DNA of 61,078 nt. Origin: a virus. A program made the translations under genes and the position numbers. Positions 1-61,078 of this stretch are shown here, piece by piece. How positions within the stretch are numbered: position 1 is the stretch's first letter; every line of letters starts with the position of its first letter. Below the pieces are notes generated by a model. That model did not search any database and had not been told where the DNA came from. It worked only from the letters and a program-made list of their open reading frames with translations. The stretch is taken from the IMG/VR virus record IMGVR_UViG_3300034103_001378, positions 1-61,078 of that record. One strand, 5' to 3'.

Positions 1-83
1 ATATCAACACGGACGACACGTTTGACGGCTACACGATTGCACAAGTAGTCAAAGCACTACGGAACGCCGGACTCTTAGCCTAA
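1..83 (+). CDS. Tail fibre protein, 3' end only (partial)
   Basis: These are the last 27 codons and stop of the tail-fibre gene whose full copy lies at 58594-60987. The reading ends DGYTIAQVVKALRNAGLLA in both copies. Five of the six base differences between the copies are silent and one changes Lys to Asn, so both are under protein-level constraint. It is cut by the window edge and is not a separate gene. Confidence 0.9.
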   Translation, partial: INTDDTFDGYTIAQVVKALRNAGLLA

Positions 84-174
84 CCCACAACCCACAAACC
101 CATGAAATCACTATTCGACATCCAAACTGAATCCGGCCAACTCTGGTTGGACATCTCCGCACAACTCGACGCAC
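1..174. repeat. Left copy of 174-bp terminal overlap
   Basis: This segment matches the last 174 bases of the window (60905-61078). Six positions differ (8, 20, 23, 35, 59 and 62) and the remaining 112 bases are identical. It covers the tail-fibre 3' end and the start of the next gene. Such an end-to-end match is expected from a circularly permuted or terminally redundant phage genome assembled through its own start, or from a true direct terminal repeat. Confidence 0.95.
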
Positions 175-578
175 TCCGCAAGGAAGGCGCGGACGCACTC
201 GCAGCGGCACAGGCCACGGCGAAAGAAGCCGCCGACAAAGCAGCCGCCGACGCCGCGACCGCCAAGGCCGCGAGTGACGCAGACCTCGCCGCCGCCAACG
301 CAGCGCGCGACAAGGCCACCTCGGAACTCGCCGCGATGACCGCGCAGGACCAGAAGCACGCCACGGCATTGCTCGCCGCGCTGGACTGGACCGCGATTGA
401 CGCGGAATACGCCGACTTGCAATCCAAGCTCGCAGCCAACAGCGCGAAATACGACGCCGCCCGCGCAACGCTGGCAACGCTAGCCGCCGCGATCAATGCG
501 CCGTTTGCCGAGCGCGAAGCCGCTGCCAAAGCCGCGCGCGTGAAGGAACTCGAAGCGCAACTCGCCGCCGTGAAATGA
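102..578 (+). CDS. Alanine-rich coiled-coil protein downstream of tail fibre
   Basis: The 158-residue product is not recognised by family. After a short N-terminal segment (MKSLFDIQTESGQLWLD) almost the whole protein is an Ala/Lys/Asp/Glu-rich helix with heptad-like spacing, so a long coiled coil is likely. It has no signal peptide or membrane segment. It follows the tail-fibre gene by 18 bases, counting through the circle junction, so it may be a fibre-associated, assembly or chaperone protein; that role rests on position only. The leader is A/C-rich (CCCACAAACCC) with no Shine-Dalgarno. A second, truncated copy of its start lies at 61006. Confidence 0.85.
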   Translation: MKSLFDIQTESGQLWLDISAQLDALRKEGADALAAAQATAKEAADKAAADAATAKAASDADLAAANAARDKATSELAAMTAQDQKHATALLAALDWTAIDAEYADLQSKLAANSAKYDAARATLATLAAAINAPFAEREAAAKAARVKELEAQLAAVK

Positions 579-582
579 AGCA

Positions 583-876
583 ATGAGCGACACCGAACAA
601 GAACAAAACAGAGCCGAGGCACGCCGTTGGAAATTCGACGGCACCGTGAACCTCGGGCACGTCCTCACTGCTGCCGTGATGCTCATTGGCGGACTCGGAG
701 TGTGGACGCAGGGGCGAGAAGTAATGATTCGGCAAGACGCTCGTCTGGCATTGGTCGAGACCACGATGGCTGAGGTTAAATCAAACCTGTCCAAAATCTC
801 CGAGTCGCAGCAGCTCGCAATCCGCACGCAGGATAAGCTGGCGGCAACCCTCGACGCCATCAGCCGGAAGCCGTGA
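583..876 (+). CDS. Small membrane protein of lysis block
   Basis: The 97-residue product has a charged N-terminus, one membrane segment at about residues 25-43 (LTAAVMLIGGLGVW region) and a C-terminal helical, probably coiled-coil, region. It starts four bases after the upstream gene and overlaps the next gene (a lipoprotein) by four bases. The arrangement of membrane protein plus overlapping lipoprotein beside an endolysin resembles holin or spanin pairs. Holin-accessory protein and inner-membrane spanin are both possible; the sequence alone does not decide. Confidence 0.8.
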   Translation: MSDTEQEQNRAEARRWKFDGTVNLGHVLTAAVMLIGGLGVWTQGREVMIRQDARLALVETTMAEVKSNLSKISESQQLAIRTQDKLAATLDAISRKP

Positions 877-1103
877 ACCGAACCCTCTACATCATCCTCG
901 CCATCATCGCGGCGCTCTGCATGTTCACCGGCTGTGCCACTAAACGCCACGGCAACGAGACGGCCCCACTCGTGCGGCACCTCACTACCGCCACGGCTGC
1001 GACTGCACGGGCACGGCACGACGGCAAGGAAGTGAAGCGGATTCTTTCCCGCGTGGACTATAAGGCCGGAAGGATTCTCCGGCTGCTGGAGGACGAACCG
1101 TGA
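873..1103 (+). CDS. Small lipoprotein, Rz1-like spanin candidate
   Basis: The 76-residue product starts with a hydrophobic signal (LYIILAIIAALCMFTGC) whose FTGC lipobox predicts cleavage and lipidation at Cys21. The mature part is short and basic. The start is GTG overlapping the previous stop, and the end overlaps the next gene. Outer-membrane lipoproteins of this size in lysis blocks are typically Rz1-type o-spanins, which would imply a Gram-negative host. Unlike lambda Rz1 it is not proline-rich and is not nested within another gene, so the role is inferred. Confidence 0.8.
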   Translation: MNRTLYIILAIIAALCMFTGCATKRHGNETAPLVRHLTTATAATARARHDGKEVKRILSRVDYKAGRILRLLEDEP

Positions 1104-1480
1104 GGCCGTGCCTGCCGTTGCTCATACTGTGGGTGTTGCTGGCGATGGCTAACTCGCAGACTGTCCCCACGGCACTCCCCGTTACTGACGGCAAGACGCG
1201 CACGGAGATCGTGAAGCTGGTGAAGCAGATGCAGGTGTTATTCCACGAAGCGCAGGCGCAGACGGACTCCGTTCTCGCACAACTCGCCATCCTCACGACC
1301 GCCCACAATGCCGCGCTCGTGGAGACGCAGGCCGTGCAGGGCACGCTCGACACACGCACGCGGGAGCGGGACAAGGCGCGGCTGGATGCGGCGAATCAGG
1401 CGAAAGCGAAGTGGATGTGGTTCTCTGCATTCAGCCTGACGGCCATCGGGTTTGCAGCCTTTGCATATTTCAAACGATGA
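1100..1480 (+). CDS. Coiled-coil membrane protein, possible spanin partner
   Basis: The 126-residue product has an N-terminal hydrophobic stretch (LPLLILWVLLAMANS) that looks like a signal sequence or anchor. A long helical, heptad-rich middle follows (about residues 30-105), then a C-terminal membrane segment (FSAFSLTAIGFAAFAYF). It starts at GTG overlapping the lipoprotein stop and ends with an ATGA overlap to the next gene. A coiled-coil periplasmic domain tied to the membrane is the i-spanin pattern, though the C-terminal membrane helix is unusual for that class. Function is uncertain. Confidence 0.75.
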   Translation: MRPCLPLLILWVLLAMANSQTVPTALPVTDGKTRTEIVKLVKQMQVLFHEAQAQTDSVLAQLAILTTAHNAALVETQAVQGTLDTRTRERDKARLDAANQAKAKWMWFSAFSLTAIGFAAFAYFKR

Positions 1481-1893
1481 AAGCCTTCCTTACCCGACTA
1501 CTTAAAACGCTGGCGATGAACTTCGCCTCGCGGAAATTCTTGATGACCCTGTTCGCCATCTGGACGGAATGGGGGCTGTATTGGGCGACCGTGAGAACCC
1601 TCTACACGTTCACCACGCCGGAGCAACTGACTGCATTCGTTTCGATCACTCAACACTTCCAGTGGGCGGTCACGACGATGTTGCTCGCCTATCTCGGAAT
1701 CCAGACGGCGGAGAATTTCTCCAACGCGGCGGCGGCGAAGTTCGAGAGTGTCGCGCAGAATGTCGCATCGAGCACCAAGAGCGAAGTGAAGACCGAGAAC
1801 GTGCAACGCATCGTCCATGAGTACGCCGAGCGATACAAGGACGACCCGAGCTACGCGCCGATCAAGAAAGACACCGAGGAGAAGTTCCGATGA
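1477..1893 (+). CDS. Holin-like membrane protein
   Basis: The 138-residue product starts at an ATG that overlaps the preceding stop (ATGA); an in-frame upstream start at 1411 would bury it in the previous gene and was not used. Two membrane segments are visible, around residues 20-40 (FLMTLFAIWTEWGLYW) and 60-80 (FQWAVTTMLLAYLGIQTAENF). A charged helical C-terminal tail follows. Size, two membrane spans and position directly before the endolysin (ATGA overlap) fit a holin. No specific holin family is recognised. Confidence 0.75.
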   Translation: MKAFLTRLLKTLAMNFASRKFLMTLFAIWTEWGLYWATVRTLYTFTTPEQLTAFVSITQHFQWAVTTMLLAYLGIQTAENFSNAAAAKFESVAQNVASSTKSEVKTENVQRIVHEYAERYKDDPSYAPIKKDTEEKFR

Positions 1894-2357
1894 ACTGGCC
1901 CACCGAAGCACAGTGCCCGAAGTTCTACGGGCCAAAGGGCGAGAACCAGACGCAGATCGTCCTGCCTTACCCGATGGTGTTGGACTGGGACAAGGCCACG
2001 CGCATCACCGAGATGACGTGCCACGAGAAGGTCGCAGATGCGATGCTGCGAGTGTTCACGAAGCTGAAAGGCGAATACGGCGAGGAGAAGCTGCGCGAGC
2101 TTGGGATCGATCAGTTTGGGGGCTGCCTGAACGTGCGGCTCAAGCGCGGGAGCAAAAGCGCGTGGTCAATCCATTCATGGGGGTGCGCCGTCGATCTTGA
2201 TGCGGACAGGAACATGCTCAAGGAGACGAAGCGCACTGCGCGGTTTGCCCGCCTCGAATACCTGCCGATGTGGAAAATCATCGAGGGCGAGGGCGCAGTC
2301 AGCTATGGCCGCGCGAGGGACTTCGACTGGATGCACTGGCAGTTTGCCCGGCCATGA
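1890..2357 (+). CDS. M15-family peptidoglycan peptidase (endolysin)
   Basis: The 155-residue product carries the zinc-binding pattern of M15 (VanY/DD-carboxypeptidase and L-Ala-D-Glu endopeptidase) enzymes. His95 and Asp102 lie in SIHSWGCAVDLD and His149 in DFDWMHWQF. These enzymes cut the stem peptide of peptidoglycan, so this is the likely endolysin. There is no signal peptide, so export should depend on the holin encoded immediately upstream with a four-base overlap. The length is normal for a single-domain M15 endolysin and no cell-wall-binding domain is present. Confidence 0.92.
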   Translation: MNWPTEAQCPKFYGPKGENQTQIVLPYPMVLDWDKATRITEMTCHEKVADAMLRVFTKLKGEYGEEKLRELGIDQFGGCLNVRLKRGSKSAWSIHSWGCAVDLDADRNMLKETKRTARFARLEYLPMWKIIEGEGAVSYGRARDFDWMHWQFARP

Positions 2358-2440
2358 ACTTCGCCGCCACTGGCATCCTCGCGGTGTTCATCTTCGCTGG
2401 CATCGTCGTGCTCTGCGCCACGCTTGGCGGGAAAAAATAG
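2354..2440 (+). CDS. 28-residue single-span membrane peptide
   Basis: A tiny reading frame begins with an ATGA overlap on the endolysin stop and ends at TAG. Nearly the whole product is one hydrophobic helix (GILAVFIFAGIVVLCATLG) ending in Lys-Lys. The coupled start and clear transmembrane character argue that it is translated. By position it could modulate holin timing or add to membrane damage; that is inference. Confidence 0.6.
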   Translation: MNFAATGILAVFIFAGIVVLCATLGGKK

Positions 2441-2451
2441 AAATCTGAACC
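2441..2451 (+). promoter_or_regulatory. Start-site motif AAATCTGAACC before ATG
   Basis: One copy of a motif (consensus AAATCCGAACC) found directly before start codons at 2452, 12862, 22792, 34196 and 34854, and in shorter form at 27293 (minus strand) and 10093. It is unlike a Shine-Dalgarno sequence. Here it lies outside any coding frame, so it is not explained by protein sequence. Confidence 0.6.
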
Positions 2452-2628
2452 ATGAACAAAACACTGCCGGCGGCATTCAACAGCGGGGGAGTCGAGGGAA
2501 ATCGCTACTCCCTGAACAACAAGGAGACCCGGAGGAAGCTGCGCGAATGGGAGAAGCGCAGGCCGAACGGGAAGTCGCACACCGTCGGCGTCCCTCGCGG
2601 AAAATTCGGATCGATCAACCCAGGGTAA
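2452..2628 (+). CDS. Small basic protein, unknown function
   Basis: The 58-residue product is Lys/Arg-rich (NKETRRKLREWEKRRPNGK) and follows the AAATCTGAACC start motif. No family is recognised. It sits between the lysis block and the scaffold gene. The basic helix could bind nucleic acid or acidic virion proteins, but nothing in the sequence fixes a role. The start is chosen because of the recurrent motif and because the frame is open from here to a clean stop. Confidence 0.6.
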   Translation: MNKTLPAAFNSGGVEGNRYSLNNKETRRKLREWEKRRPNGKSHTVGVPRGKFGSINPG

Positions 2629-2687
2629 CGACCGCGAAAGATTTTGCTTGCCATCCGCGAATGCGATGAAGCAGGCGGCGGATCGCA

Positions 2688-3782
2688 ATGGAAAACACAG
2701 CACCAGCGGAGGTCACAGATCCCGCAAGCGCAGCAGCGACAGCAACGCCCGCGGAAACGCAGGCGACTCCAACCGCGACCGGCGACCCCTTCGACGACGT
2801 TCTTGCACAGCAAGAGGCGGAGTTGGCGAGGATGCAGGCCGCGAACCAGCCAGAAACCGAAGCAGTTCCCGCAGCGATCACGACCGAACCGGAACCGCAG
2901 GCAGGCGAAACCACGCCGCCCGCGGACCCGAAATCGGATCGCATCCTGCCAAACCGCGTCTCCACCGCACAGTTCAGCGACACCGAGCAGCAAGCGATTG
3001 CGCTCGGCAAGGCGCTGAAGGATGCAGGGGAGACGGTGCCAAGCCTGAAGGAGCGCATCGAGATTGTCGAAGCGCGCCAGCAGAAGCAGGCGCCCGTAGC
3101 CACACCAGACCCCGAACCCGAACCACAGCACGGCGACGCGCTGACGGAACTGGACGAAAAGCTGAATGCGGCGATGGACCGGCGAAAGGAACTCGCGAAG
3201 TCACTCGGCACCGAGGAACTGGAGGAGGCCAAGGACGAGATCGAGCAACTGAGGCAGCAGAAGGCGGCCGTTGAATCGCAGCAGGCGAAAGCCGCCGCGG
3301 AAAAACAGGACGCATTCGCCACAGAACGCTCGAACTCAATCAAGGCCGCGAAGGGGCAATTCCCTTCATCCACTGATCCGAAGTCCGAACTGGCACAAGC
3401 CATCGCTGCACGCATCGAGTCGATCGCCAAAGATCCCGCTCGCAGTGTTCTCCTGAGTGATCCGAAGGCTCCCGAAGTCATCGCCGCCGAAGCCGCCATG
3501 CAACTGGCGAAACTGCGCGCCGCCGACAACGGAACCTCGGTCGCCAAGGAACTCGCCGCGCTCATGGAGTCGGACGCCCCCGCGCAAGCGGCAGCGACCG
3601 CAACCCAACCGACGCCGCAAGTCCGCAAGCCCACGACCGCAGGAGGGGCCGCGAGCATACCGCCCGCGACACCGCCCGCGCCAAAGGCCCTCTCGCTCGC
3701 AGAAGCCGCAAACATGAGTCTCGCAGACCTGGAGAAGCTATCACCCACTCCGGGGAACTCGGGATACGTGCTGCGCAGGTAG
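2688..3782 (+). CDS. Probable capsid scaffold protein
   Basis: The 364-residue product is acidic, rich in Pro/Ala/Glu/Gln and low in hydrophobic residues. It has a disordered N-terminal third, a central coiled coil (about residues 155-220, DEKLNAAMDRRKELAKSL onward) and a more compact C-terminal part. It lies directly upstream of the major capsid gene. Composition, predicted coiled coil and position fit a scaffold protein that guides capsid assembly and is then lost. No protease motif is visible. The exact start is supported by ATG after GATCGCA; there is no Shine-Dalgarno. Confidence 0.75.
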   Translation: MENTAPAEVTDPASAAATATPAETQATPTATGDPFDDVLAQQEAELARMQAANQPETEAVPAAITTEPEPQAGETTPPADPKSDRILPNRVSTAQFSDTEQQAIALGKALKDAGETVPSLKERIEIVEARQQKQAPVATPDPEPEPQHGDALTELDEKLNAAMDRRKELAKSLGTEELEEAKDEIEQLRQQKAAVESQQAKAAAEKQDAFATERSNSIKAAKGQFPSSTDPKSELAQAIAARIESIAKDPARSVLLSDPKAPEVIAAEAAMQLAKLRAADNGTSVAKELAALMESDAPAQAAATATQPTPQVRKPTTAGGAASIPPATPPAPKALSLAEAANMSLADLEKLSPTPGNSGYVLRR

Positions 3783-3822
3783 TCCACCAACAACCCAACC
3801 CAAATCTCACATCTCTAATCCA

Positions 3823-5409
3823 ATGAAAAATCGCAATATCTTCCGGCTGCTCTTCGTGGCCGCACTCGCATTCGTCTCCGGCCCGCTGGCTCTCGCCGCG
3901 CTGTTCGGATTCCTCACTGTCCCGGCGCTCGGCACGAGCTACCCGGTCGCCAACGCCACCACCAAGGGCGACCTCACCACGCAGAACGCCAATCTCGAAC
4001 AGGAGATTTGGGCGCTCAAGGTCGTGAAGGGCGCGGACGCCGCATACCAGGACAATCCGCTCGCGGATGGATTCATGGGCGAGGGCGACGCAGGCAAGGC
4101 CATCGTCAAGATCACCGACACCGAGAAAGTGTCCGGCTCCACCGTGCATGTCACGACCTACGGCGGCTTCGGCGGCCCCGGCGTGCAGGGCGCGGGCGTC
4201 CGCACCGGTTCGGCCAACAAGATTCAGGCCGGCTCGTTCGACGTGAAGATCGGTCGCCAGTGGTTCGGCGTGGGCTACCAGAGCGTCGCCCGCGACGAAA
4301 CGATGGTCGGCGGTCGTCTCGACGGCATGATCAAGCAAGGTCTGAGCCAGCAGCACGCCATCAAGAACAACGACGATATGCTTCGCCTCATGATCGCGAA
4401 GTCTGAGGCGTCCAGCCGGAACAAGATGTTCACGGTGGGCGGCCCTTCGACCATCGCGACGATCAAGACGGCGCACTACATGGACACCGCGACGATCGGT
4501 AACACGCGGAACATCCTCACCAGCAACGGCGCGCTTCCGATGGCGACCGGCGCGATGGACTCCGGCGGCAGCCGCGTGAAGAACTACATGGTCTTCGGCA
4601 CGCACTACGCCCTGAGCCACCTCAAGAGCGAAAGCGACTACCTCGCCGGCATCCGCCTGGCGGGTGAGCGCGGGGACAAGAACCCGCAGTTCAAGGGCAA
4701 CTTCGTGGATTGGGACGGCGTGGGAATCTACCGCTGGGACCAGCTCGATCACGGGAACTGGGGACCGATTGGATCCCTTCTCGCCCCGCGCCTCTACCTC
4801 GGAGCGGCACTCGCCCCGACGTTCAGCGGCACCACGGTCAATGGCGGCACCATCGCCGTGAAGGGCGGCGGCAGCGCGGCGGCGGCAGCAGTCACGCCCG
4901 CCCCTGAGTACACCCGCTACTTCAGCAACGCCCCGTGGACCTACCACTGGGGCGCCACCATCGCCGCGGACACCGCCACGCTGCGCTACATCCTCGTCAT
5001 CAACCCCTCGACGGGCGTGTGGGGCGTGTTCGGCTTCAAGGTCAACACCGGCCTCGAAATCACCCTGTTCAGCAAGGTCGTGCTCGGCCTCACCGGGGAA
5101 ACCACTGATTGGGCATTCCCGATCGGCTCCCTCGTGGTCGAGTGCAACATCCTCGGCACCCCGTTCGGTCGCTCGCTCGGCCTCGGCGCGGAAGCCCTTA
5201 TCTGCGGCGTCGGCACGATCAACGGCTCGAAAGTGAGCCCGCAGTTCGGCAAGCGCACCGAGGAGCACCTGAATCATGACATGGATCATGAAATCGGTGC
5301 GGAGAAGGTGTGGGGCGCGGCCCTTGTGGAGCGTTCTGACGGTGTGTGCCCCGGCTTCGTGGTCTCGTGCCACGCACTGCCTGTGCCCGGCGCTCCCGTC
5401 ATCGCCTAG
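3823..5409 (+). CDS. Major capsid protein (N4 gp56/DUF4043-like)
   Basis: The 528-residue product resembles the N4-gp56 (DUF4043) capsid family in its N-terminal half: the segments TTKGDLTTQNANLEQEIW, a Gly-rich stretch (GGFGGPGVQGAGVRTGSANK), and the region giving RQWFGVGYQSVARDE and NNDDMLRLMIAKSEA. The first 35 or so residues are odd for a capsid protein: FRLLFVAALAFVSGPLALAA reads as a hydrophobic signal-like helix. Either it is a processed N-terminal extension or translation starts later, although the next Met is well inside the conserved part. Scaffold gene upstream and a strong hairpin downstream fit high, separately terminated expression. Confidence 0.88.
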   Translation: MKNRNIFRLLFVAALAFVSGPLALAALFGFLTVPALGTSYPVANATTKGDLTTQNANLEQEIWALKVVKGADAAYQDNPLADGFMGEGDAGKAIVKITDTEKVSGSTVHVTTYGGFGGPGVQGAGVRTGSANKIQAGSFDVKIGRQWFGVGYQSVARDETMVGGRLDGMIKQGLSQQHAIKNNDDMLRLMIAKSEASSRNKMFTVGGPSTIATIKTAHYMDTATIGNTRNILTSNGALPMATGAMDSGGSRVKNYMVFGTHYALSHLKSESDYLAGIRLAGERGDKNPQFKGNFVDWDGVGIYRWDQLDHGNWGPIGSLLAPRLYLGAALAPTFSGTTVNGGTIAVKGGGSAAAAAVTPAPEYTRYFSNAPWTYHWGATIAADTATLRYILVINPSTGVWGVFGFKVNTGLEITLFSKVVLGLTGETTDWAFPIGSLVVECNILGTPFGRSLGLGAEALICGVGTINGSKVSPQFGKRTEEHLNHDMDHEIGAEKVWGAALVERSDGVCPGFVVSCHALPVPGAPVIA

Positions 5410-5428
5410 TTTGTGTGGTTCATAGCCG

Positions 5429-5460
5429 GCCCCGGCGGAGCGTCATGTCTCCGCCGGGGC
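5429..5460 (+). terminator. GC-rich hairpin after capsid gene
   Basis: An 11-bp perfect stem (arms 5429-5439 and 5450-5460, GCCCCGGCGGA with its complement) closes a 10-base loop 19 bases after the capsid stop. It is followed by a loosely T-rich stretch (TCTTTCAATTTT) rather than a clean T tract. A terminator or 3'-end RNA stabiliser for the capsid transcript is likely. Confidence 0.7.
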
Positions 5461-5485
5461 GCAGTCTTTCAATTTTCAATCCTCT

Positions 5486-6040
5486 ATGTCTGCCAAAATC
5501 AAACTCGTCACCTACGGAACCGCACGCAACGTCATGCCCTCTTTGCAGGGAAGGAGCGGCAGGGTCTATGACCGCGCCCACTTCCACGAGAAGGACATGC
5601 GACACCAGACGGCAGAGTTCGACCTGGACGAGTTCCAGAATACGATCCTGCCCGACATCGCGAAGCATCCGAACGTGATCAAGTGGTGGCCGGTGGTCGC
5701 GGTGGCCGAATCCGGCGACGACGTGAAGCGGCTGACGGAGGAACTTGCGGCGGCGAAAGCGGAGATCGCGCGCCTGAAATCGGAGATCGCGCGCCTGAAA
5801 TCCGAGCAGACAAACACCCGGACGCCGGATGCCTTTACCGGACTCGTGAACGCGACCGGAGCCAACGAGCCCGCCGCGCAAGCCGCGCGTCCGCTGGCCG
5901 AACTCGGACACCGCGAGCTTCGCGCGATGATGAAGGAGCGCGGAATCCCGCTGATCGGAAACCCGAACAAGGACGACATGATCGCCCTTCTCAGCGCGCC
6001 GAAACCCGATGCCGCGCCCGCTGACGACATCGAGACGTAG
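5486..6040 (+). CDS. Small head protein with coiled coil and SAP/HeH-like C-terminus
   Basis: The 184-residue product has a folded N-terminal part (residues 1-75), then a coiled coil of EIARLKS units at about 90-110, then a C-terminal segment (HRELRAMMKERGIPLIGNP then KDDMIALL) that resembles HeH/SAP or Rho-N helix-extended-loop-helix modules seen in phage head proteins. It lies between the capsid and adaptor genes, so a head-completion or minor capsid role is likely. A 21-bp tandem duplication lies inside the coiled coil. Confidence 0.7.
   Translation: MSAKIKLVTYGTARNVMPSLQGRSGRVYDRAHFHEKDMRHQTAEFDLDEFQNTILPDIAKHPNVIKWWPVVAVAESGDDVKRLTEELAAAKAEIARLKSEIARLKSEQTNTRTPDAFTGLVNATGANEPAAQAARPLAELGHRELRAMMKERGIPLIGNPNKDDMIALLSAPKPDAAPADDIET
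5761..5802 (+). repeat. 21-bp perfect tandem duplication
   Basis: The unit GGAGATCGCGCGCCTGAAAT plus C occurs twice head to tail, adding one EIARLKS heptad to the coiled coil. This is a likely site of length variation among related phages. Confidence 0.9.
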
Positions 6041-7068: not shown

Positions 7069-8441
7069 GCCTCGGGGCGCGCAGGGACTACGGACTTTCG
7101 CAGGCGCAGAATCGGCTGCTTGAGCCATCCACGATCTACCCGACGGCCAACGTCCGGGATCTCGTGCTCGTGGAGGACGTGCTGCTCGACGCCGGTTACA
7201 CCCCGGTTCTCATTGGTACGCCACGGAAGGGCGCGAGCAACTACCGCCTCGTCTCGCAGAAAGAGGCGGATGGCGACGGGGACAAGCAATACATGCGGCG
7301 GGTGTGGGCCACGTCGCAGAACGCGCAGGAGGCGCACAATCTTTCCCTGAAGTATCTGGAGGGCGGCCACGCCGCGCCGACCTACATCCGCAAGTACACG
7401 ATCCTCAAGAGCGCCTACGCCGCGCTCACGGCCGGCACGCCGCTCACGGCGGTCATCGGCATCGCGCTCACCGCGGGCGGCAGCGGCTACCTGACAGCCC
7501 CCACGGTGACATTCAGCGGGGGATCAGGCACCGGGGCGGCGGCGATCGCGCAGATTCGCGACGGGGCCGTGGTCGCGCTTTTGCTCACGGCAGAGGGCAC
7601 CGGATACGTCACGACTCCCACGGTCGCATTCAGCGGCGGCGGCGGCACAGGCGCGACGGCAACGGCATCCATCCAAGACCAGACCGCGATCCTGATCGAC
7701 CAGGAGGCAGTGCCCGAGCAGGGCGAGATGGGGAACCTTTTCTACTCAGTCACGCGCGTATGGCAGACGCTACCGGGGCCGGCGACGATCCGCTACGAGA
7801 TCGACGGAGAGACGCAGACCGACGTTTCCGTGACGAAGCAAATGGTGGCGAAGCCGTCTGCGCCCTACACGCAAGTCGCCGGATCGGACATCATCTATCA
7901 GCCGATTTCCTCGGTTCACGGATGGAAAATCACAAGCACGCTGCTGGACTTCGCTGGCATCACCGTCACGAAGACCGACACGATGCAGATCCATTACCCT
8001 TCCGTGGTGACTGGATCGCCGACGCTGGATCACTTTGCCGGCAACGACGGCGCGGTGATCGTGAATCTGAACTGGCCGATTGTCTCCGGAGGTTCACGGC
8101 AGGCGATTGCTACCACCACTTTCACCTACGCGGGATCGCAGACCGCCGCCACGGTCAACGCCTACTTCACCCCGGAGACAAAAGACCTGATTTTCAGCGG
8201 CCTGTTCTACAACGTCTCGCTGCGCGGCGTTGCGGTGAACGGAACCGTGACGGTGCCGAACTTCAACACCGCGAGCAACAATCCGAAGTGGGGATACATC
8301 GGCGTGGTGGGGCCATCTTGGACTGGGACGAGCGGCGCGAGCGCGTTCCTGTCCGCGGTGTCCGGCATCGTGCATAGCTGCGACATCGTGCGCTGGAAGT
8401 ATCACCTTCTCCGCAAGGCCGTAACCACCGTCACCGGATAA
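7065..8441 (+). CDS. Beta-rich tail protein with internal repeat
   Basis: The 458-residue product begins at TTG overlapping the previous stop. Around residues 130-205 there are two copies of a Gly-rich motif, TAGGSGYLTAPTVTFSGGSG and TAEGTGYVTTPTVAFSGGGG. This is the GGSGYtsaPTVtfsGGgg repeat widespread in tail spikes and fibre-like phage proteins. The rest is beta-rich without membrane segments. It is probably a tail or tail-spike component. The stop overlaps the next start (TAATG). Confidence 0.7.
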   Translation: MSLGARRDYGLSQAQNRLLEPSTIYPTANVRDLVLVEDVLLDAGYTPVLIGTPRKGASNYRLVSQKEADGDGDKQYMRRVWATSQNAQEAHNLSLKYLEGGHAAPTYIRKYTILKSAYAALTAGTPLTAVIGIALTAGGSGYLTAPTVTFSGGSGTGAAAIAQIRDGAVVALLLTAEGTGYVTTPTVAFSGGGGTGATATASIQDQTAILIDQEAVPEQGEMGNLFYSVTRVWQTLPGPATIRYEIDGETQTDVSVTKQMVAKPSAPYTQVAGSDIIYQPISSVHGWKITSTLLDFAGITVTKTDTMQIHYPSVVTGSPTLDHFAGNDGAVIVNLNWPIVSGGSRQAIATTTFTYAGSQTAATVNAYFTPETKDLIFSGLFYNVSLRGVAVNGTVTVPNFNTASNNPKWGYIGVVGPSWTGTSGASAFLSAVSGIVHSCDIVRWKYHLLRKAVTTVTG

Positions 8442-9553
8442 TGGACGAACCCGACATCCCTGATGTGATCCTGCAAAGGATTCGCGAAGTCATCCCGCAC
8501 GCGCCGGGCAGGAATCAGCCGGAGACCGACCGGAACGAGTCGATGCCGTATCAGCGCCCCGAGGGGCTGCTGCCTGTGAACGGCGAGCGCGAGTTCGATA
8601 TTTCCGTGCTCGACCATGCCGGCCCGACCGTGAAGGTGATGGCGGGCACATGGATGGGTACCTCGTCTTTTGGCTCAACTAATATCGGCACGCGACGCGC
8701 CTACCACACGCTGACGGTTGCGAACGGCGACATTATTTACGTAAAATTCAACACCAACACTTGGGCCGTCACTGTGCTTGCTGGCGCGACCATGCCTGGC
8801 AATGATGAGCACATCGGATTGTATTATCGGTCCCTTGCCGCTGTGACCATTGCTGCCGGGGTTATTTCAGTTGCGCAATACGTTTGGGGACCATTTGAAT
8901 ACACCATGCGCTTCAACGACCGGCGCGAGTTCGACGTGGAGCCGTTCATCGGCGGCGCATCCGCAGTGTCGGTCAAAGGAGGGACATGGATGGGAGTCAA
9001 GGGGACAGGCACTGATCCGCTCACACGCTCAGAGTATTTCGGGCTGAACGTGGTAGATGGTGACACTATTTATGTCCATTACAACAGTTACTACAATACC
9101 CTGACTTACCACGCCGGAGCAACCATGCCAGCCGACGCGCCGGAAAACGCGCAGTTCTACGCGAGGCTTGCGACCGTGACTGTGACGGCTGGCGTCGTTT
9201 CCGTCAACCAATACCGATGGGGACCGATAGAGCATCTGCCACGGCAGAACGTCACATATCCTCTGGATTATGACGGATTGTCCTCAACCGCACACACGGA
9301 TTCTTGGTATAACTACGCACCGCGCGATTCGAGCGGAAACATCCGCACGGGATACAACGCCGTCACATGGATTGGCGACCGCCCCTATCAGTCAACGGTA
9401 GGAACGATCACGATCAGCGGCACCACGCTTCACATCATCGAAACGAAGCTCTTCAGCCGAACCGTGACCGTGGACAGCAACGGCTGTATCTCCAACATCA
9501 GCGCTGAGTTTCTGAAAGCGACGTGGACGTGGCTTTCCGACACGGCTATCTAA
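8441..9553 (+). CDS. Structural protein with two related beta domains
   Basis: The 370-residue product holds an internal duplication: a block at about residues 45-155 (VKVMAGTWMG...AGATMPGNDE...VISVAQYVWGPFEY) and a second at 160-270 (VSVKGGTWMG...AGATMPADAP...VVSVNQYRWGPIEH). A C-terminal beta-rich piece follows. The base composition of the repeats is visibly more A/T-rich than the flanks, suggesting later acquisition. Its place at the end of the structural block suggests a fibre, receptor-binding or tail-tip role. No family was recognised. Confidence 0.7.
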   Translation: MDEPDIPDVILQRIREVIPHAPGRNQPETDRNESMPYQRPEGLLPVNGEREFDISVLDHAGPTVKVMAGTWMGTSSFGSTNIGTRRAYHTLTVANGDIIYVKFNTNTWAVTVLAGATMPGNDEHIGLYYRSLAAVTIAAGVISVAQYVWGPFEYTMRFNDRREFDVEPFIGGASAVSVKGGTWMGVKGTGTDPLTRSEYFGLNVVDGDTIYVHYNSYYNTLTYHAGATMPADAPENAQFYARLATVTVTAGVVSVNQYRWGPIEHLPRQNVTYPLDYDGLSSTAHTDSWYNYAPRDSSGNIRTGYNAVTWIGDRPYQSTVGTITISGTTLHIIETKLFSRTVTVDSNGCISNISAEFLKATWTWLSDTAI

Positions 9554-9625
9554 GTGATTCCGCCCGCCCCGCGACGAGGCCGAAACGTCTTGCACCGAAC
9601 CGCGCCCGGCCATAAAACGGCAGCA

Positions 9626-11747: not shown

Positions 11748-12662
11748 ATGTCAGACCAACAACTCGCAGTTACCACCAACAAACCGAGCGCCCTCGCAGT
11801 CATGGCCGCGCGCTTCTCGCTTGAACCGAGCAAGCTCCTCTCCACGCTCAAGGCGACCGTATTCAAGGGCGCGTCGGACGACGAGATGTGCGCGCTCGTC
11901 GTCGTCGCCAATGAATATGGGCTGAACCCGCTCACGAAGGAAATCTACGCCTTCCCTGCCAAGGGCGGCGGCATCGTGCCTGTCGTCTCGATTGACGGCT
12001 GGATCAACCGCATGAACTCGCATCCGCAGTTCGACGGCATCGAGTTCGCCGACAGCTTCGACGCCGCCGGAAAGCCGGTGAGCGTCACAGCGTCCATCTT
12101 CCGAAAGGATCGCACGCGCCCGACCATCGTGACCGAATACTACGGGGAGTGCTACCGCAGCTCCGATCCGTGGAATAAGTGCCCAGCGCGGATGCTCCGG
12201 CATAAGGCGCTCATGCAGTGCGTGCGCGTGGCGTTTGGCTTTGCTGGCGTGCATGACGAGGACGACGCAGCCGCGATCACTTCATCTGTGACGATCTCCG
12301 AAATCCCGCGCGCCCAACTCACCGACACGCGCGCAGTCGAGGCGGAAGTGATCCCGCCGGACAAGAAGACCGAGCCGAAGCCGAAGGCGGAGAAGCCCAA
12401 GGCGAAGCCCGAACCCGCGCCCGAAAAGACGCCGGCATCCGCGAGTGATCCCGCTCCCGCTGACGAGACTCCCCACGGAAAGCTGCGCGCGATGCTCGCG
12501 GAAGGCGGATGGACCGATGACGAATGCGTGAAACTCGCGATCTCGGTGTTCCCGGCTCTCAAGCACATCAAGACCGTGGACGAGATCCCGGCCTCGAGGA
12601 TCGCTGACATCATCGAGGACTGGGCCACCGCCGAGGGCGCGATGAAGACGATCAGGGGGTAG
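11748..12662 (+). CDS. Single-strand annealing recombinase (Bet/RecT type)
   Basis: The 304-residue product carries the Bet/RecT core: ANEYGLNPLTKEIYAFP, GGIVPVVSIDGWINRMN and WNKCPARMLRHKALMQCVR. These proteins anneal complementary strands during phage recombination and replication. The C-terminal third is a charged Lys/Pro/Glu linker (about residues 205-245) followed by a small helical domain, a known feature of longer family members. Neighbouring nuclease, SSB-like and DUF2800 genes complete a lambda-Red-like module. The start follows the leader ACCACA without a Shine-Dalgarno. Confidence 0.92.
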   Translation: MSDQQLAVTTNKPSALAVMAARFSLEPSKLLSTLKATVFKGASDDEMCALVVVANEYGLNPLTKEIYAFPAKGGGIVPVVSIDGWINRMNSHPQFDGIEFADSFDAAGKPVSVTASIFRKDRTRPTIVTEYYGECYRSSDPWNKCPARMLRHKALMQCVRVAFGFAGVHDEDDAAAITSSVTISEIPRAQLTDTRAVEAEVIPPDKKTEPKPKAEKPKAKPEPAPEKTPASASDPAPADETPHGKLRAMLAEGGWTDDECVKLAISVFPALKHIKTVDEIPASRIADIIEDWATAEGAMKTIRG

Positions 12663-12664: not shown

Positions 12665-12865
12665 ATGCCCGAAGGCAAAAGGATCACCACGCTGGAGCAA
12701 CTCGCCGCGGCGAGCGCGGCGAAGAAGGCGATTGTCACACGCACTCAGTTCTTCACCAACCGGCACATGCCCGCTGCCTTTATCCTCAATATGTCCGGCA
12801 GCGTGCTCCACTGCATGATGAGGCAAGGAATGTTCATCTACACCCCGAAAAAATCCGAACCATGA
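12665..12865 (+). CDS. Unknown 66-residue protein ending KKSEP
   Basis: The product is compact (TRTQFFTNRHMPAAFILNMS in the middle). It begins two bases after the annealase stop and ends with an ATGA overlap to the nuclease gene. Its last four sense codons (KSEP) are written by the recurrent start motif AAATCCGAACC, so the C-terminus is at least partly shaped by a signal for the next gene. No family is recognised. Confidence 0.65.
   Translation: MPEGKRITTLEQLAAASAAKKAIVTRTQFFTNRHMPAAFILNMSGSVLHCMMRQGMFIYTPKKSEP
12851..12861 (+). promoter_or_regulatory. Start-site motif AAATCCGAACC before ATG
   Basis: Exact copy of the recurrent 11-base motif abutting the DUF2800 start codon. It overlaps the end of the previous gene. 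Confidence 0.6.
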
Positions 12866-13995
12866 TCAGATCATCCACATCCCCATCCAATTTGCACAGG
12901 CGCGTGCGCTGCCCTGGCTCGCACGCGGCTGAATTGGGCCTGCCCGAGCAGAACAGCGAATACGCCGAGGAAGGCACCCGCCTGCACGCCGCGCTGGAAG
13001 ACAGCGCGGGATGCGAAGGACTCGACGAAAAGCAGATCGAACTCGTGCTTTCGACACGGGAAATCTTCGCCGAGGTCATCGAGCGCACGGTCGCTGCGAT
13101 GGCGATTCCGCCGGATGCACCGTTCACAGAGGGCTACGAGCGCGAGCTTCGCGTGCGGAGCAAGCTGCGCACGGTGATGATCGGCCATTGCGACCATTGG
13201 CGCTACTACCCCGATCAGAAGGTGCTGGTGATCACGGACGCCAAGTTCGGATTCATCGAAGTCACGCCGGCCCCGCTTAACCTTCAACTGCGCGCATACG
13301 CGGTGATGGGCTCACAGGAGTGGGATGTTGAACATGCCGTCGTCGCCATCGCGCAGCCTCGCGCCGGCATGATCGACGACGCCGAGAAACTGACGATCGC
13401 GCAGTATGACCGCGCCGACCTCGCCCTAGCTCACGCGCAGATTCTTGAATGGGAGTGCGAATGGTTGAAGCCGTTCGCGCCGCGCGTGCCTTCCGAGGAT
13501 GCGTGCAGGTATTGCAAGGCCAAGCTGCTTTGCAATCAGTACGCCGAGCGGATGGGATCGCTGAAGGGTGATGTCGTCGCCGGGATTGCTGATCTGCCGG
13601 AGGATCGGTTTGCCCTGCTTTTCGAGGCGCTGAAAATCGCGGCGAAAGCCGACACGCAAAAAGCAATCTTGGCCGAGGCCCGCGTGCGCGTCGCCGAGGG
13701 GCGGCTACCCGGCTACCGACTCAAGCCGAACGCAGCGCGACGGTCGATCACCGACAACGCGAAGGCGTCGGCGATCCTTCGGGACGGGCTTGCGTTCACG
13801 CAGGATGAGATCGCGGAAGCGAGTTCGCTTTCACTCGGCGAGGCCGTGACCGTGCTTCGCCGCAAAGTGAAGTTCAAAAACGAGGCCGAGGCGACCAAGT
13901 GCCTGCGCGACACGCTGGCGTCGGTGATCGAACTCAAAACGCCGGAACCGAGCGTGGTTCCGGTTTCATCGCATGATGCTGCGAGGACTGTGTAG
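12862..13995 (+). CDS. DUF2800 Cas4/RecB-like exonuclease
   Basis: The 377-residue product matches the DUF2800 phage nuclease pattern. It has an N-terminal Cys/His segment (RVRCPGSHAAE), an acidic EGTRLHAALE, IGHCDHWRYYP and ITDAKFGFIEV (the D-x-K active-site signature of the PD-(D/E)XK fold), LQLRAYAV, and a Cys pair (CRYCKAKLLCNQY) that may bind an iron-sulphur cluster with the N-terminal Cys. Members act with single-strand annealing proteins to resect ends, as Red-alpha does with Bet; the annealase lies one gene upstream. Confidence 0.85.
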   Translation: MIRSSTSPSNLHRRVRCPGSHAAELGLPEQNSEYAEEGTRLHAALEDSAGCEGLDEKQIELVLSTREIFAEVIERTVAAMAIPPDAPFTEGYERELRVRSKLRTVMIGHCDHWRYYPDQKVLVITDAKFGFIEVTPAPLNLQLRAYAVMGSQEWDVEHAVVAIAQPRAGMIDDAEKLTIAQYDRADLALAHAQILEWECEWLKPFAPRVPSEDACRYCKAKLLCNQYAERMGSLKGDVVAGIADLPEDRFALLFEALKIAAKADTQKAILAEARVRVAEGRLPGYRLKPNAARRSITDNAKASAILRDGLAFTQDEIAEASSLSLGEAVTVLRRKVKFKNEAEATKCLRDTLASVIELKTPEPSVVPVSSHDAARTV

Positions 13996-13997: not shown

Positions 13998-15065
13998 ATG
14001 AAGCTCAAGGGATGCACCGGGAACGCGCTCCGAAACGGGACTGACTTCATGACTACCAACACGCCTCCTCAACTGAACGCCAGGGTGCCGTCCGTATCAT
14101 CCGCTGGTTCGGAGCCGGATTTAGTCGGCGCGAGCACACGATGCGATGGGAGCCGTGGCGGTGCGCGTGGTGTGCGGTCGGATTCAGATTTGGCACCGGA
14201 CAAGAGGCCCAATGGAGTCAGCGTGGCGCTTGCTTCCGCGCAAGGTAGTCCGGTGCCATTCACTTTGCTGGCTGGCGACTGCCGCGAGACTTTGCGCGGG
14301 CTGCCGGCCGCGTGCGCGCAATGCTGCGTGACCTCGCCGCCATACTGGAATCTCCGCGACTACGGGCACGCCGACCAAATCGGGCAGGAGGCGACGCCAG
14401 AGGAATACGTTGCCAGTCTCGTGAAGGTGTTTCGCGAAGTCCGGCGGGTGCTCGCGCCCGATGGGACACTGTGGCTGAACCTCGGAGATACCTACTGGAA
14501 GAAGCAACTCGTCGGCATCCCGTGGCGCGTGGCGCTTGCTTTGCAGGCGGATTCGTGGTGGCTGCGCTCGGAAATCATCTGGCATAAAGAAAACGCGATG
14601 CCGGAGAGCACGACGGACCGGCCAAGTCGTAGCCACGAAACAATCTTTCTGTTCGGTGCCTCCGAGAGCTACCGTTACGACGCAGAAGCAATCAAAGAGC
14701 CGATCCAGTCAGACCGCGCGCCGAGCCGAAAGGCGAAGGCCACTGGCGCGGGGCACTCCGAACTTCGAGGAGGCACACCCTACGACGGGAGCGGGACGCA
14801 TCGCAACCGCCGCACGGTCTGGACGGTGCCAACGGCACCGTATCCGAATGCTCACTTCGCCGTTTATCCGGCGACTCTCATCGCGCCTTGTATCCTCGCC
14901 GGGAGTCAGCCCGGCGAGGTGGTGCTCGATCCTTTCGGCGGGAGTGGAACGACGGGAGCCACCGCGCTGACTCTCGGGAGAAAAACGATCCTGTGCGAAC
15001 TCAACCCGGAATACGCGAAGCTCATCGAGCAACGCACGACAACCACCTTTGGATTGCCTCTATGA
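13998..15065 (+). CDS. DNA methyltransferase, beta class (N4-cytosine type)
   Basis: The 355-residue product has the beta-class motif order: motif IV TSPPYW (residues 112-117) before motif I DPFGGSGTT (from residue 311). SPPY rather than DPPY favours N4-cytosine methylation. The first 75-85 residues before LLAGDC are low-complexity and look like a repeat-derived extension, related at DNA level to the 5' ends of other genes in this block. A second ATG at 14049 follows GACTGACTTC, similar to leaders at 16320 and 19932, and may be the real start. Confidence 0.88.
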   Translation: MKLKGCTGNALRNGTDFMTTNTPPQLNARVPSVSSAGSEPDLVGASTRCDGSRGGARGVRSDSDLAPDKRPNGVSVALASAQGSPVPFTLLAGDCRETLRGLPAACAQCCVTSPPYWNLRDYGHADQIGQEATPEEYVASLVKVFREVRRVLAPDGTLWLNLGDTYWKKQLVGIPWRVALALQADSWWLRSEIIWHKENAMPESTTDRPSRSHETIFLFGASESYRYDAEAIKEPIQSDRAPSRKAKATGAGHSELRGGTPYDGSGTHRNRRTVWTVPTAPYPNAHFAVYPATLIAPCILAGSQPGEVVLDPFGGSGTTGATALTLGRKTILCELNPEYAKLIEQRTTTTFGLPL

Positions 15066-15283
15066 ACCGTCCAAATTACGACAACGTAGCTGACGCAATA
15101 CGCGGCGCAATGGCTAGGCTGTGCCGGGCTGTATCACGTCGAATGATGCCGGATGAACCAACGCCGGAAGATAGAATCGAGATGCTGGAGGCATACAAGG
15201 CGGCGTGCGCCTTGCTGGAGTCATGCCAGCCGAACGACAAGCTCTGCCGCGAGCAGGGCGGAAAGGACTCCGATGGCAGGTGA
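15062..15283 (+). CDS. Unknown 73-residue protein
   Basis: The start overlaps the methylase stop (ATGA). The product is helical (NVADAIRGAMARLCRAVSRR then EDRIEMLEAYKAACALLESC) with four Cys but no clear zinc pattern. No family is recognised; it belongs to the modification block by position. Confidence 0.6.
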   Translation: MNRPNYDNVADAIRGAMARLCRAVSRRMMPDEPTPEDRIEMLEAYKAACALLESCQPNDKLCREQGGKDSDGR

Positions 15284-15506
15284 ACCGCGGCGACATGGAG
15301 ACGGCGCAGCGCATGGTTCGCTTCCTCGCCTACCCGCAAGACCTTGGGTTGCGAGCCAGCAATACTCCATGCGCTTCATCCTCTCGCAAGACAACGAAAT
15401 TCTCTGGCGGTGTGACTTCGTGCCGATGCCGGTACTCAAGGCAATGGTGGACGCCGCCAATGCAGCAATGGAAGCGAACGCAAAGCTCTGCAACTCGCGC
15501 CCATGA
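15273..15506 (+). CDS. Unknown small protein; convincing only from residue 33
   Basis: From ATG 15273 the frame gives 77 residues, but residues 1-32 are low-quality sequence. A second ATG at 15369 begins the convincing part (MRFILSQDNEILWRCDFVPM then helical PVLKAMVDAANAAMEA). The stop overlaps the MT-A70 start. Which start is used is unclear, and function is unknown. Confidence 0.5.
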   Translation: MAGEPRRHGDGAAHGSLPRLPARPWVASQQYSMRFILSQDNEILWRCDFVPMPVLKAMVDAANAAMEANAKLCNSRP

Positions 15507-16306: not shown

Positions 16307-16319
16307 TTGGTTCGACTTT

Positions 16320-16931
16320 ATGACCTACGAATTTTGTCCAAAATGCAATTCCCGCCCGTGCCAGTGTGCGGAAGAAAGTAAATCGCTCTACAAAGAGCGG
16401 TCTCACGGTTCCTTTGGAACATTTGAAATCGAGATAACTGTCGGCGCAACCAAGCTGCCTGACCTCAACCAAAAGGAAATCTCATACGCGGCTTACGATG
16501 CCGTCAAGCTAGTGAAGGCCGCAGTGATGGCTGCTGTAGTTCGAGACAACCCGGAGGCAAAGGAGCGTGCAAAAAACGAACGTCGTGAACTGCTCGCTCT
16601 ATTCTCGGAGCCAATTCACGCGGAAGAAATCCCCAACGGCTATTGCTCAGACTGGTGCTGTAAGCATCTGCCGTGGTTTGTTGTCACAACCAAGGCGGGA
16701 CGATTCACAATCGGATGGCGAAAGCACGTCATTGAAATCAACTGGAAGGCTGTGGATGGGGCTGGCACCGCCGAGGATTTGTTTGCCGCCGAGAATGTCA
16801 CGAAAGACAAGACCATGATTCACGCTTGGAGCCTTGATGATGCACGTCGCTACATCGCGTCAATCGTAGTGAGCACCGAGAAGTCGAACGCCGGGCTTCA
16901 CCAACGCGCCGAGGACGCGCCCCCGCAATGA
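16320..16931 (+). CDS. Unknown protein with Cys-rich N-terminus
   Basis: The 203-residue product begins MTYEFCPKCNSRPCQCAEE, a likely small zinc-binding element, followed by a beta-rich region and a helical body. A second Cys cluster (CSDWCCKHLPWFVV) lies near residue 115. No enzyme family is recognised. The start follows GACTTT, a leader shared with 19932. It overlaps the XF1762-like gene by four bases, so a role with the modification enzymes is possible. Confidence 0.65.
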   Translation: MTYEFCPKCNSRPCQCAEESKSLYKERSHGSFGTFEIEITVGATKLPDLNQKEISYAAYDAVKLVKAAVMAAVVRDNPEAKERAKNERRELLALFSEPIHAEEIPNGYCSDWCCKHLPWFVVTTKAGRFTIGWRKHVIEINWKAVDGAGTAEDLFAAENVTKDKTMIHAWSLDDARRYIASIVVSTEKSNAGLHQRAEDAPPQ

Positions 16932-58593: not shown

Positions 58594-60987
58594 ATGGGAC
58601 TCACCTGCACGCTGACCGGAACCATTTACCGCGACGACGGCGCGGTGGCAACAGGCGCGGTGGTGAGCTTCACGCTCTGCGCGCCTCGGAACACGCACTG
58701 GACATCGAACAACCGCGTCGTCCTGCGTGCGGTTCTTTCCGCGACCACCGACGGGAGCGGGAACTTCTCGCAGGTGGTCGCCCGGAACGATGAACTCACT
58801 CCGGCCGGAACGTATTGGAAGGTGGAATGCGCCGATGCCGCGCTGCTGAAGCACATCGCGGCGAACGCGGACACGCTGAACGTGATCGACGCGCCGGATC
58901 TGGATGCCTCCGCGCAGGTGTTCAGCGGATTGGACGACCCGGATGCGGATTGGGTGGCGCACGGGCACGCGCAGACGCTCACGGCGGCGGAAAAGCTGCA
59001 AGCCGCAACGAACCTCGGACTGAACCTGTCCGCGTCGCAACTGCTCGGACAGGCTTCGAGCGGCGGCACCGGGCTTCCGGTTGCTGTCACGCTCGGCACC
59101 GGCCTGGCGATGAGCGGCACGACGCTGAATGTTACTCTCAGCACTGGCCTGACAGTCGGCACCACAGCCATCGCCAGCGGCACCACGGGCCGCATCCTCT
59201 ATGACAACGCGGGCGTGCTTGGGGAGCTACCAGTCGGCACCGGGGTCGCGACGGCACTGGCGGTCAACGTGGGCAGCGCAGGGGCGTTCCTGACATCGGC
59301 TGTAACCTCCATCACCGGCACGGCAAACGAAATCACAGTCACCGGCACGACGACGCCGACGCTCTCGCTTCCGAGCGCGCTGACATTCACCGGCAAGACG
59401 GTGACGGGCGGGACGTTCAATTCGCCGACGCTATTCGAGCCTAGTTCCATAAATTACAAGATTCTCGATAACCAAGACGGAACCATGAAAGGCCGTCTTA
59501 CTAACGATTTTACGCACGTATATTTAGACGCCGGTGGTGATGTATTTTTGCGGTCATCCGATTTCGTAAGCAGCTATCTCATCCTCGCTCATTTCTCCGC
59601 TTCAACGGGGCGCATGTCATTAGGCCACTCAGCATTTTTATCCGGGAAAATCGGATTCAAGAACGCTACATCGACGGGAACTACAACCCTCGACTCCGCA
59701 AACGCTTCTGCAAACGACTACACGGTTACACTGCAAGCTGCGACAGGCACGCTCGCGCTGACCTCCGACATCACAGGCGGCACACGCGCGGGCAGCTTCA
59801 CCACGCTGACGGCAAGCTCCACCACGTCCCTCCTCCTCGGCACCGCAGGCAGCGCCGTTGGCAACGTGGGCTTCCGCAACGCCACCTCTGGCACCACGAC
59901 GCTTGCGCCTGCTACGGGCGCGCTCGGCACGGGCACGGTGACGCTCCCGCTGAGTGGCACGCTGGCGACGCTGGAGGGGAGCAACACCTACACCGGCACG
60001 ACGAACACCTTCACGCTGCCAACCACGACCGGCACGACCACGACCAGCGGCATCGCGGTTGCGGCCAACAGCCTCACGACCGGCACGGGCATCTACGCGG
60101 CCTCCTCATCGCTTACGAGCGGCAAGCTGCTTGACCTGCAAGTGAGCGGCACGGCGGCGGCGGCATCGCAGACCGCGCTGAACGTCGCCACTGCGGGCGC
60201 GAATGGCACGAGCGGCATCACCAGCAAGGGTGCGGTGATTTCCAACACGCACACCGGGACGACCTCGACTAATGTGGCGTTGGAATTGACTGCGAGCGGC
60301 GGGACGACGAACACGGCGCTGAATGTGACGGCGGGGAATACATTTCTTTCAGGCAATCTACTATTTACAGACAGCACTTACGATATTGGTAACAGTGGAG
60401 CGCCGTTTTATCGTGTGCGTCACATTTACAGCACTGGAACCATCACCGCCCTGCAGTCAAACATAACCGTTTGCGGCGCTACCTATTTCAGCGACGCTTT
60501 AAACACGAAAACGTATGTGGACACGACAGGCACGGGGTGGATTATCATCCCGCGCGCAACAACGACTGTCCCATTTACCTGTCGAGGCACGGCATCGCAA
60601 ACCGCAGACCTGCAACGCTGGACAGATTCATCTGCTTCCGTTTTGGCGAAAATAGCGGCGGATGGATCATTTACCACCACAGGCACTCTCGCCGTGACCG
60701 GAGCCAGCACGCTTACAGGGCTTCTCACTGCTAACGGCGGAATCACTTTAGGCGATGCGCAGAACATCGCTTTCAACACGACGACCGGAACGAAGATAGG
60801 CGCGGCAACAACGCAGAAACTCAGCTTTTGGAATGCGACGCCAATCGTTCAGCCAACAACGGCAGTTGCCAGCGCAACCGTTGCTCACACGGGCGGGGGG
60901 ACAAATATCAAAACGGACGACACTTTCGACGGCTACACTATTGCACAAGTAGTCAAAGCACTGCGAAACGCCGGACTCTTAGCCTAA
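58594..60987 (+). CDS. Tail fibre protein
   Basis: The 797-residue product has a folded N-terminal domain (residues 1-130, likely virion attachment), a helical link (TAAEKLQAATNLGLNLSASQ) and then hundreds of residues of Thr/Gly/Ser/Ala-rich beta repeats (GTTTTSGIAVAANSLTTGTG) ending in DGYTIAQVVKALRNAGLLA, a fibre C-terminus seen in other phages. It probably binds the host receptor. Two segments (about 59440-59740 and 60340-60660) are clearly more A/T-rich than the rest, suggesting mosaic exchange. The 3' end differs between the two window ends. Confidence 0.85.
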   Translation: MGLTCTLTGTIYRDDGAVATGAVVSFTLCAPRNTHWTSNNRVVLRAVLSATTDGSGNFSQVVARNDELTPAGTYWKVECADAALLKHIAANADTLNVIDAPDLDASAQVFSGLDDPDADWVAHGHAQTLTAAEKLQAATNLGLNLSASQLLGQASSGGTGLPVAVTLGTGLAMSGTTLNVTLSTGLTVGTTAIASGTTGRILYDNAGVLGELPVGTGVATALAVNVGSAGAFLTSAVTSITGTANEITVTGTTTPTLSLPSALTFTGKTVTGGTFNSPTLFEPSSINYKILDNQDGTMKGRLTNDFTHVYLDAGGDVFLRSSDFVSSYLILAHFSASTGRMSLGHSAFLSGKIGFKNATSTGTTTLDSANASANDYTVTLQAATGTLALTSDITGGTRAGSFTTLTASSTTSLLLGTAGSAVGNVGFRNATSGTTTLAPATGALGTGTVTLPLSGTLATLEGSNTYTGTTNTFTLPTTTGTTTTSGIAVAANSLTTGTGIYAASSSLTSGKLLDLQVSGTAAAASQTALNVATAGANGTSGITSKGAVISNTHTGTTSTNVALELTASGGTTNTALNVTAGNTFLSGNLLFTDSTYDIGNSGAPFYRVRHIYSTGTITALQSNITVCGATYFSDALNTKTYVDTTGTGWIIIPRATTTVPFTCRGTASQTADLQRWTDSSASVLAKIAADGSFTTTGTLAVTGASTLTGLLTANGGITLGDAQNIAFNTTTGTKIGAATTQKLSFWNATPIVQPTTAVASATVAHTGGGTNIKTDDTFDGYTIAQVVKALRNAGLLA

Positions 60988-61078
60988 CCCACAACCCACA
61001 AACCCATGAAATCACTATTCGACATCCAAACTGAATCCGGCCAACTCTGGTTGGACATCTCCGCACAACTCGACGCAC
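60905..61078. repeat. Right copy of 174-bp terminal overlap
   Basis: Matches 1-174 with six substitutions, all within the tail-fibre coding part (positions 60912 to 60966). See the left copy. Confidence 0.95.
61006..61078 (+). CDS. Start of the alanine-rich coiled-coil gene (partial duplicate)
   Basis: First 73 bases of the gene whose full copy is at 102-578, identical in sequence. Present because the contig overlaps itself; not a second gene in the circular genome. Confidence 0.85.
   Translation, partial: MKSLFDIQTESGQLWLDISAQLDA

Follow-up and report, generated by a model that had tools for sequence, protein, structure and literature searches.

The two ends of the window, meaning the whole 61,078-nucleotide stretch of IMG/VR virus record IMGVR_UViG_3300034103_001378, overlap imperfectly, and the question raised by this locus is what such an overlap represents. 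Positions 1-174 and 60905-61078 align without gaps and are equal at 168 of 174 bases (blastn E 3e-78); this is the sole overlap with less than 25% mismatch among terminal overlaps of 100-399 nt, and the second-best self-match of the window is 103 nt long at 85% identity. The mismatches are at overlap positions 8, 20, 23, 35, 59, and 62, where the start and end copies read C/A, G/T, T/C, G/T, A/G, and G/A, respectively, and positions 63-174 (112 nt) contain none. With random placement, the probability that all six fall within the first 62 of 174 nt is 0.0017. All six are inside the fibre gene and five are silent (P = 0.004-0.007 for at least five of six by chance); at position 8 the end copy encodes Lys and the start copy Asn. 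The first-pass annotation described this overlap correctly, including its length, the clustering and silence of the differences, and the identical remainder. Its statement that the variation is confined to the 3' end of the tail-fibre gene is not supported in that form, since the start copy merely begins there, the upstream bases have no counterpart, and relatives vary over the whole distal fibre and often in the next gene as well.

Whether both versions are genuine can be judged from related sequences. The 3' block that contains the overlap was aligned with 15 relative loci, some of which are near-copies of one another, with further near-copies left out. Every one of the five silent sites is represented by both bases in these loci, and the five-site haplotype of the start copy is present in four of them (L011, L013, L018, and L026). 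A 65-mer of the start copy carrying the five silent alleles (window 9-73) has an exact match in three other IMG/VR contigs; the corresponding 65-mer of the end copy has no exact match in IMG/VR, although its silent alleles are all present, individually, in relatives. Summed over 13 relatives, the fibre part of the 3' block has 240 silent and 54 amino-acid-changing differences, where about 27% silent would be expected by chance. The silent bias within the overlap is therefore what diverged working alleles produce, which makes error very unlikely for five of the six sites, and both alleles look natural from these comparisons.

The identical part of the overlap is not invariant among relatives. 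Over the aligned part of these 112 nt, 13 of the 15 relatives have 5-14 differences, with L006 at 0/112 and L010 at 1/112, so the start and end copies share one downstream haplotype while having two upstream haplotypes in the fibre gene. The change from 6 differences in 62 bases to none in 112 lies within a continuous alignment, as is the case in exchange by homologous recombination, and this pattern, seen over 174 bases only, strongly indicates a recombination mark near the fibre stop codon. Of the earlier proposal that at least two phage variants, or recombining fibre alleles, were present, the recombination is well founded, but the second allele need not come from a variant of this phage. 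The L006 locus is the same as the start copy at 36-196 and differs at two of the first 62 positions (8 and 35), and its 25.9-kb record yielded neither the portal gene nor the major capsid gene of the window; another phage could consequently be the source of the second allele. The single contig suggests that both alleles coexisted in this sample.

The gene at the window's end is taken to be a tail-fibre gene from its position, composition, and modularity; its protein has no match in Pfam, PHROG, NCBIfam, or PDB sequences, and an AlphaFold model of its C-terminal 101 residues (mean pLDDT 40) was left unused. Comparison with two close relatives, G006 and G027, delimits a cassette (Table 1). Identity to these records is 98.6-99.2% up to position 59135, which is fibre residue 181, and 94-96% from 576/580 to 1500, but the content between differs: in G006 it comprises a fibre of 625 residues plus three other reading frames, in G027 a fibre of 829 residues plus its own version of gene 102-578. 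The three sequences thus have similar flanks with alternative content, as in a genomic island. The cassette is not the only difference among them, as several other stretches are unmatched or match at 77-91%. At window 7567-9580, 14633-18425, and 39136-43262, G006 and G027 match poorly, partly, or not at all, and these are further variable regions of the phage group.

Table 1. Coordinates of the fibre cassette, the terminal overlap, and the putative recombination genes in the window
Feature	Position	Strand	Remarks
Overlap, start copy	1..174	+	Final 83 nt of the fibre gene with stop (second allele), 18-nt spacer, and 73 nt opening gene 102-578
158-aa Ala-rich protein gene	102..578	+	Coiled-coil-like composition; often after the same fibre 3' end; no family match
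Right border	580..878	+	Backbone back at 576-580 in G006 and G027; L006 similarity continues through gene 583-876
Bet/RecT-like single-strand annealing protein	11748..12662	+	PF03837 E 2e-25; phrog_252 E 7e-67
Putative partner exonuclease	12862..13995	+	PD-(D/E)XK, DUF2800; family matches
Putative tail-fibre gene, 797 aa	58594..60987	+	N-terminal ~181 residues conserved with backbone; distal part modular
Exchangeable distal fibre part	59136..60987	+	Identity to close backbones (98.6-99.2%) ends at 59135
Shared DNA module opening the distal part	59149..59289	+	4-6/29 records
Shared DNA module (hub)	59302..59418	+	7/29 records
Shared DNA module (hub)	59791..59979	+	10-16/29 records over most; also in the otherwise different G006 and G027 fibres
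Shared DNA module (hub)	59958..60090	+	9-10/29 records over most; 16 at first bases
Shared 3' block	60682..61078	+	Fibre C-terminal 101 residues, stop, spacer, start of gene 102-578; 20-22/29 records over most, 88-97% DNA identity
Overlap, end copy	60905..61078	+	First allele of the fibre 3' end

In DNA terms, the distal fibre of the window consists of successive modules, and the records sharing them, among 29, differ from module to module (Table 1). Between the modules, 59440-59780 and 60100-60660 are shared by only one to three of 29 records, always including G001, and several module borders recur at or near the same base, in part through near-copy records. The 29 records were retrieved with fibre and gene 102-578 queries, and module counts are not prevalences. 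This arrangement suggests a conserved N-terminal attachment part, up to about residue 181, followed by distal modules that are exchangeable, with short hubs of conserved DNA separating them. Gene 102-578 often accompanies the fibre 3' end, and its product is possibly a fibre-associated protein. In other phages the swapped distal part of the fibre binds the host receptor, and by analogy the swapped part may do so here.

The position of the overlap inside this cassette, together with the ends of related contigs, bears on how the window came to be cut. In two near relatives a single contig spans the fibre gene through window position 580 and beyond (locus L007 of record G005 and L008 of G006). 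The G006 ends have an overlap of 177 nt, with a single mismatch, at window 32383-32559, and the G027 contig ends at window 537 and 576. Such scatter of ends over one map suggests a circular map that was broken during assembly, and circularity is most likely for the genome in the window as well. The end overlap of G006 (L070 1-177 and L071 3824-4000) is itself imperfect and lies elsewhere on the map: its first 127 bases are exact and base 128 differs. Those 127 exact bases presumably fit an assembler k of 127. In the 185,656-base record G025, the end overlap is 95 bases long and exact, and it falls between two modules belonging to this fibre family. To our knowledge, the exact stretches of 112 bases in the window and 95 in G025 match no familiar k-mer size, which for the window is a point against an assembly fork.

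Contig ends are enriched at the cassette. The 3' block is 2 kb or less from a contig end in 11 of 24 records, with 4.2 expected (simulated P 0.0006), and in six of the seven records of at least 40 kb, with 0.44 expected. The set consists of the window and 23 of 24 block-matching records (G028, whose 25-nt hit lies 6.7 kb from the nearest end, was excluded), and placement is uniform under the null; the window and G001 are included and several records are near-copies that are not independent. Leaving out the window and G001, the counts are 9/22 overall and 4/5 for records of at least 40 kb. A second, overlapping set without these two, made up of the 25 of 49 loci that cover roughly half of the block or more at an identity of 88% or above, has 10 of 25 contigs near an end where 4.8 are expected (P 0.009). 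G001, from sample 3300042476, departs from the window at a single base in 18 kb of compared sequence; its contig end, at 60717, falls 36 bases inside the block. Two different contigs of sample 3300042549 reach the block, of which one contains all of it and the other stops after its first 150 nt. Loci L010 and L023, from samples 3300042549 and 3300049596, are 99.8% identical over the 12.25 kb compared.

The overlap is thus likely to be an assembly fork inside a recombining fibre cassette, or metaviromic island, of a circularly mapping and near-complete genome that the assembler cut within the cassette. Such a sample would hold at least two sequences with a common junction of fibre stop and next gene and with different sequence upstream, and the assembly graph would fork there. 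The contig would end on one branch and start 62 bases upstream on the other, so that its two ends agree downstream and show mostly silent divergence upstream.

Several other explanations can be set against this one. An end overlap of 174 bases resembles a short terminal repeat, and the two ends might be copies of a true direct repeat that have drifted apart. This is very improbable, as G005 and G006 cross the junction within one contig, the G006 ends overlap at another place on the map, and there are six differences where a repeat would have identical copies at fixed ends, with relatives ending elsewhere. Replication keeps the copies of a repeat alike, and 10% divergence beside 112 identical bases is unexpected. 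If the contig were not circular but carried two fibre genes with similar 3' ends, both copies would be coding and their differences mostly silent, as they are; nonetheless, none of the 24 matching records, many of them fragments, has two full copies of the 3' block (three have a second match of 38 nt), and G005 and G006 have one fibre gene between the same flanks, which leaves this explanation improbable. Sequencing or assembly error would suit position 8, near the contig start, where all 15 relative loci have A and the C of the start copy is private; being eight bases from the contig start, that C may reflect an error at the end of the contig or a change unique to this copy. For the six differences as a whole, error has very little probability, given that the other five are silent with each base found in relatives and that their haplotype occurs exactly in three contigs, and the earlier rejection of sequencing error is borne out. 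Least probable of all is a dedicated generator of diversity, either mutagenesis by a retroelement or site-specific inversion of the fibre by an invertase. The variation does lie at a fibre 3' end, where systems of this kind act. The exchange of lambda-type side tail fibre genes has been ascribed to phage invertases in a study that deals mostly with temperate phages (PMC3945230). Against such a system, a profile search of the window matched none of the RVT_1, Resolvase, and Phage_integrase families. Five of the six differences, moreover, leave the protein unchanged, and the inverted repeats around the fibre end are only 16-25 nt at 72-88% identity. A diversity-generating retroelement was rejected on the lack of an RVT_1 match in the window and on changes that are of several kinds and mainly silent, and an invertible fibre segment on the lack of a Resolvase match and the shortness of those repeats.

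The remaining alternative concerns the owner of the second allele. It might have come from a different phage that occurred alongside and had the cassette end in common, in which case the first 62 bases would be an assembly chimera. The L006 record, in which the portal and capsid of this phage were not found, matches the start copy as described above, and a shared stretch of that length would probably fuse in a short-read graph. On the other side, L006 departs from the start copy at two positions, and sister strains carrying other cassettes are also known (G006 and G027). A chimera is accordingly a possibility to be entertained, although we do not favour it; it is compatible with most of the assembly-fork explanation, from which it differs just in whose allele was joined.

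Pieces of the cassette are also common to phages without this backbone, at approximately 85-97% DNA identity. The portal of the window phage is of the SU10 type, and a portal homologue is present in 5 of the 29 records, its absence from short records being weak evidence because these are fragments. Three long records are more informative. G019, G020, and G025 have the 3' block at 90% identity, but G019 and G020 have no DNA match to window 1000-59135 and G025 has only one, of 31 nt (E 5e-4), with 40 of 53 and 40 of 51 candidates of G025 scored in two parts of this DNA comparison. No homologue of the portal or major capsid was found in the three records. These records therefore share modules with a genome to which they show no further relation, as exchange would produce. 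G026 shares the end of the block and a few further pieces at 71-91%, together with short exact pieces. The phage itself is apparently uncultivated. The DNA of window 1-6000 has no match in 50,697 phage records, nor does the fibre protein, and of 103 candidate stretches from genome contigs of bacteria and archaea, not one was verified as related to the 101-residue C-terminus. It may tentatively be suggested that phages of unrelated backbone, ranging from the 61-kb one described here, with its SU10-type portal, up to one of 185.7 kb, take their distal fibres from one pool of DNA modules, with the hubs kept at the DNA level as joining points.

Exchange of modules, by recombination at the hubs, probably takes place among close strains as well as across phages whose backbones differ. 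The Bet/RecT-like annealing protein and the putative exonuclease encoded in the window probably assist this recombination and are a plausible engine of the exchange. Among 16 partner records RecT turned up in two, G019 and G025 not being among them, so that its part in the partners is at most putative.

The phenomenon is a real and familiar kind of phage variation. In metaviromic islands, similar backbones have alternative host-recognition genes, as here (Mizuno 2014, PMC3909814; Bellas 2020, PMC7468147), and Bellas 2020 reports that the assembler stops at such islands and that many incomplete virus contigs seemed to be broken there. In the present case, by comparison, the island is deduced from contigs and its modules also occur in other backbones, one of 185.7 kb. 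Recent mosaicism across phage groups has been described in tail fibres, and the shuffling of receptor-binding-protein domains likewise combines a similar N-terminus with swapped C-terminal parts (Smug 2023, PMC10684548); the shared pieces here, in contrast, are DNA modules of about 116-400 nt, and the fibre family has no match in the family and PDB-sequence databases searched. In the distal tail fibres of T-even phages, recombination between conserved motifs swaps adhesin specificity, to judge from a title (Tetart 1998, cited in PMC7468147); the motif-based swap appears alike, with the motifs here known from DNA comparison alone. Lambda Red Gam is reported to give high yields of recombinants at 22% divergence (PMC2327257). 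The hub divergence here, about 4-15%, is below that value, and the window also encodes an annealing protein and an exonuclease. Unlike in Red/RecT relaxed recombination (PMC2327257; PMC3945230), the exchange at this locus is deduced from sequence, and 14 of the 16 searched partner records show no RecT.

Other genes of the window include a 1116-aa terminase-like protein (35734-39084) with a LAGLIDADG domain at 700-780, matches to intein-containing proteins at approximately 523-854, and a terminase match at 966-1082; it probably represents a large terminase subunit that contains an intein. One reading frame of 4625 aa (40903-54780) occupies 23% of the window and has DarB-like antirestriction, methyltransferase, and helicase family matches, and a tRNA-Met gene (CAT; 54946-55022) lies between this giant frame and the portal gene. 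Genes for DNA modification are present at 13998-22545 (N6/N4 methylase, MT-A70, and Dam), with a Mom-like protein at 16928-17590. A PAPS-reductase-like gene is at 18466-19443, and a 103-nt direct repeat of 85% identity occurs at 16158-16258 and 19456-19557, 3.3 kb apart.

Imperfect overlaps between the ends of viral contigs are therefore informative, and this one, instead of a terminal repeat, most likely reflects circularity of the map and a contig break within a recombining host-recognition cassette. The locus adds a phage group unmatched among 50,697 phage records, as judged from the DNA of window 1-6000 and the fibre protein, whose fibre modules are shared across different backbones. If the proposal of a common pool is true, the fibre would evolve as a community-wide kit, and not as the gene of one phage.
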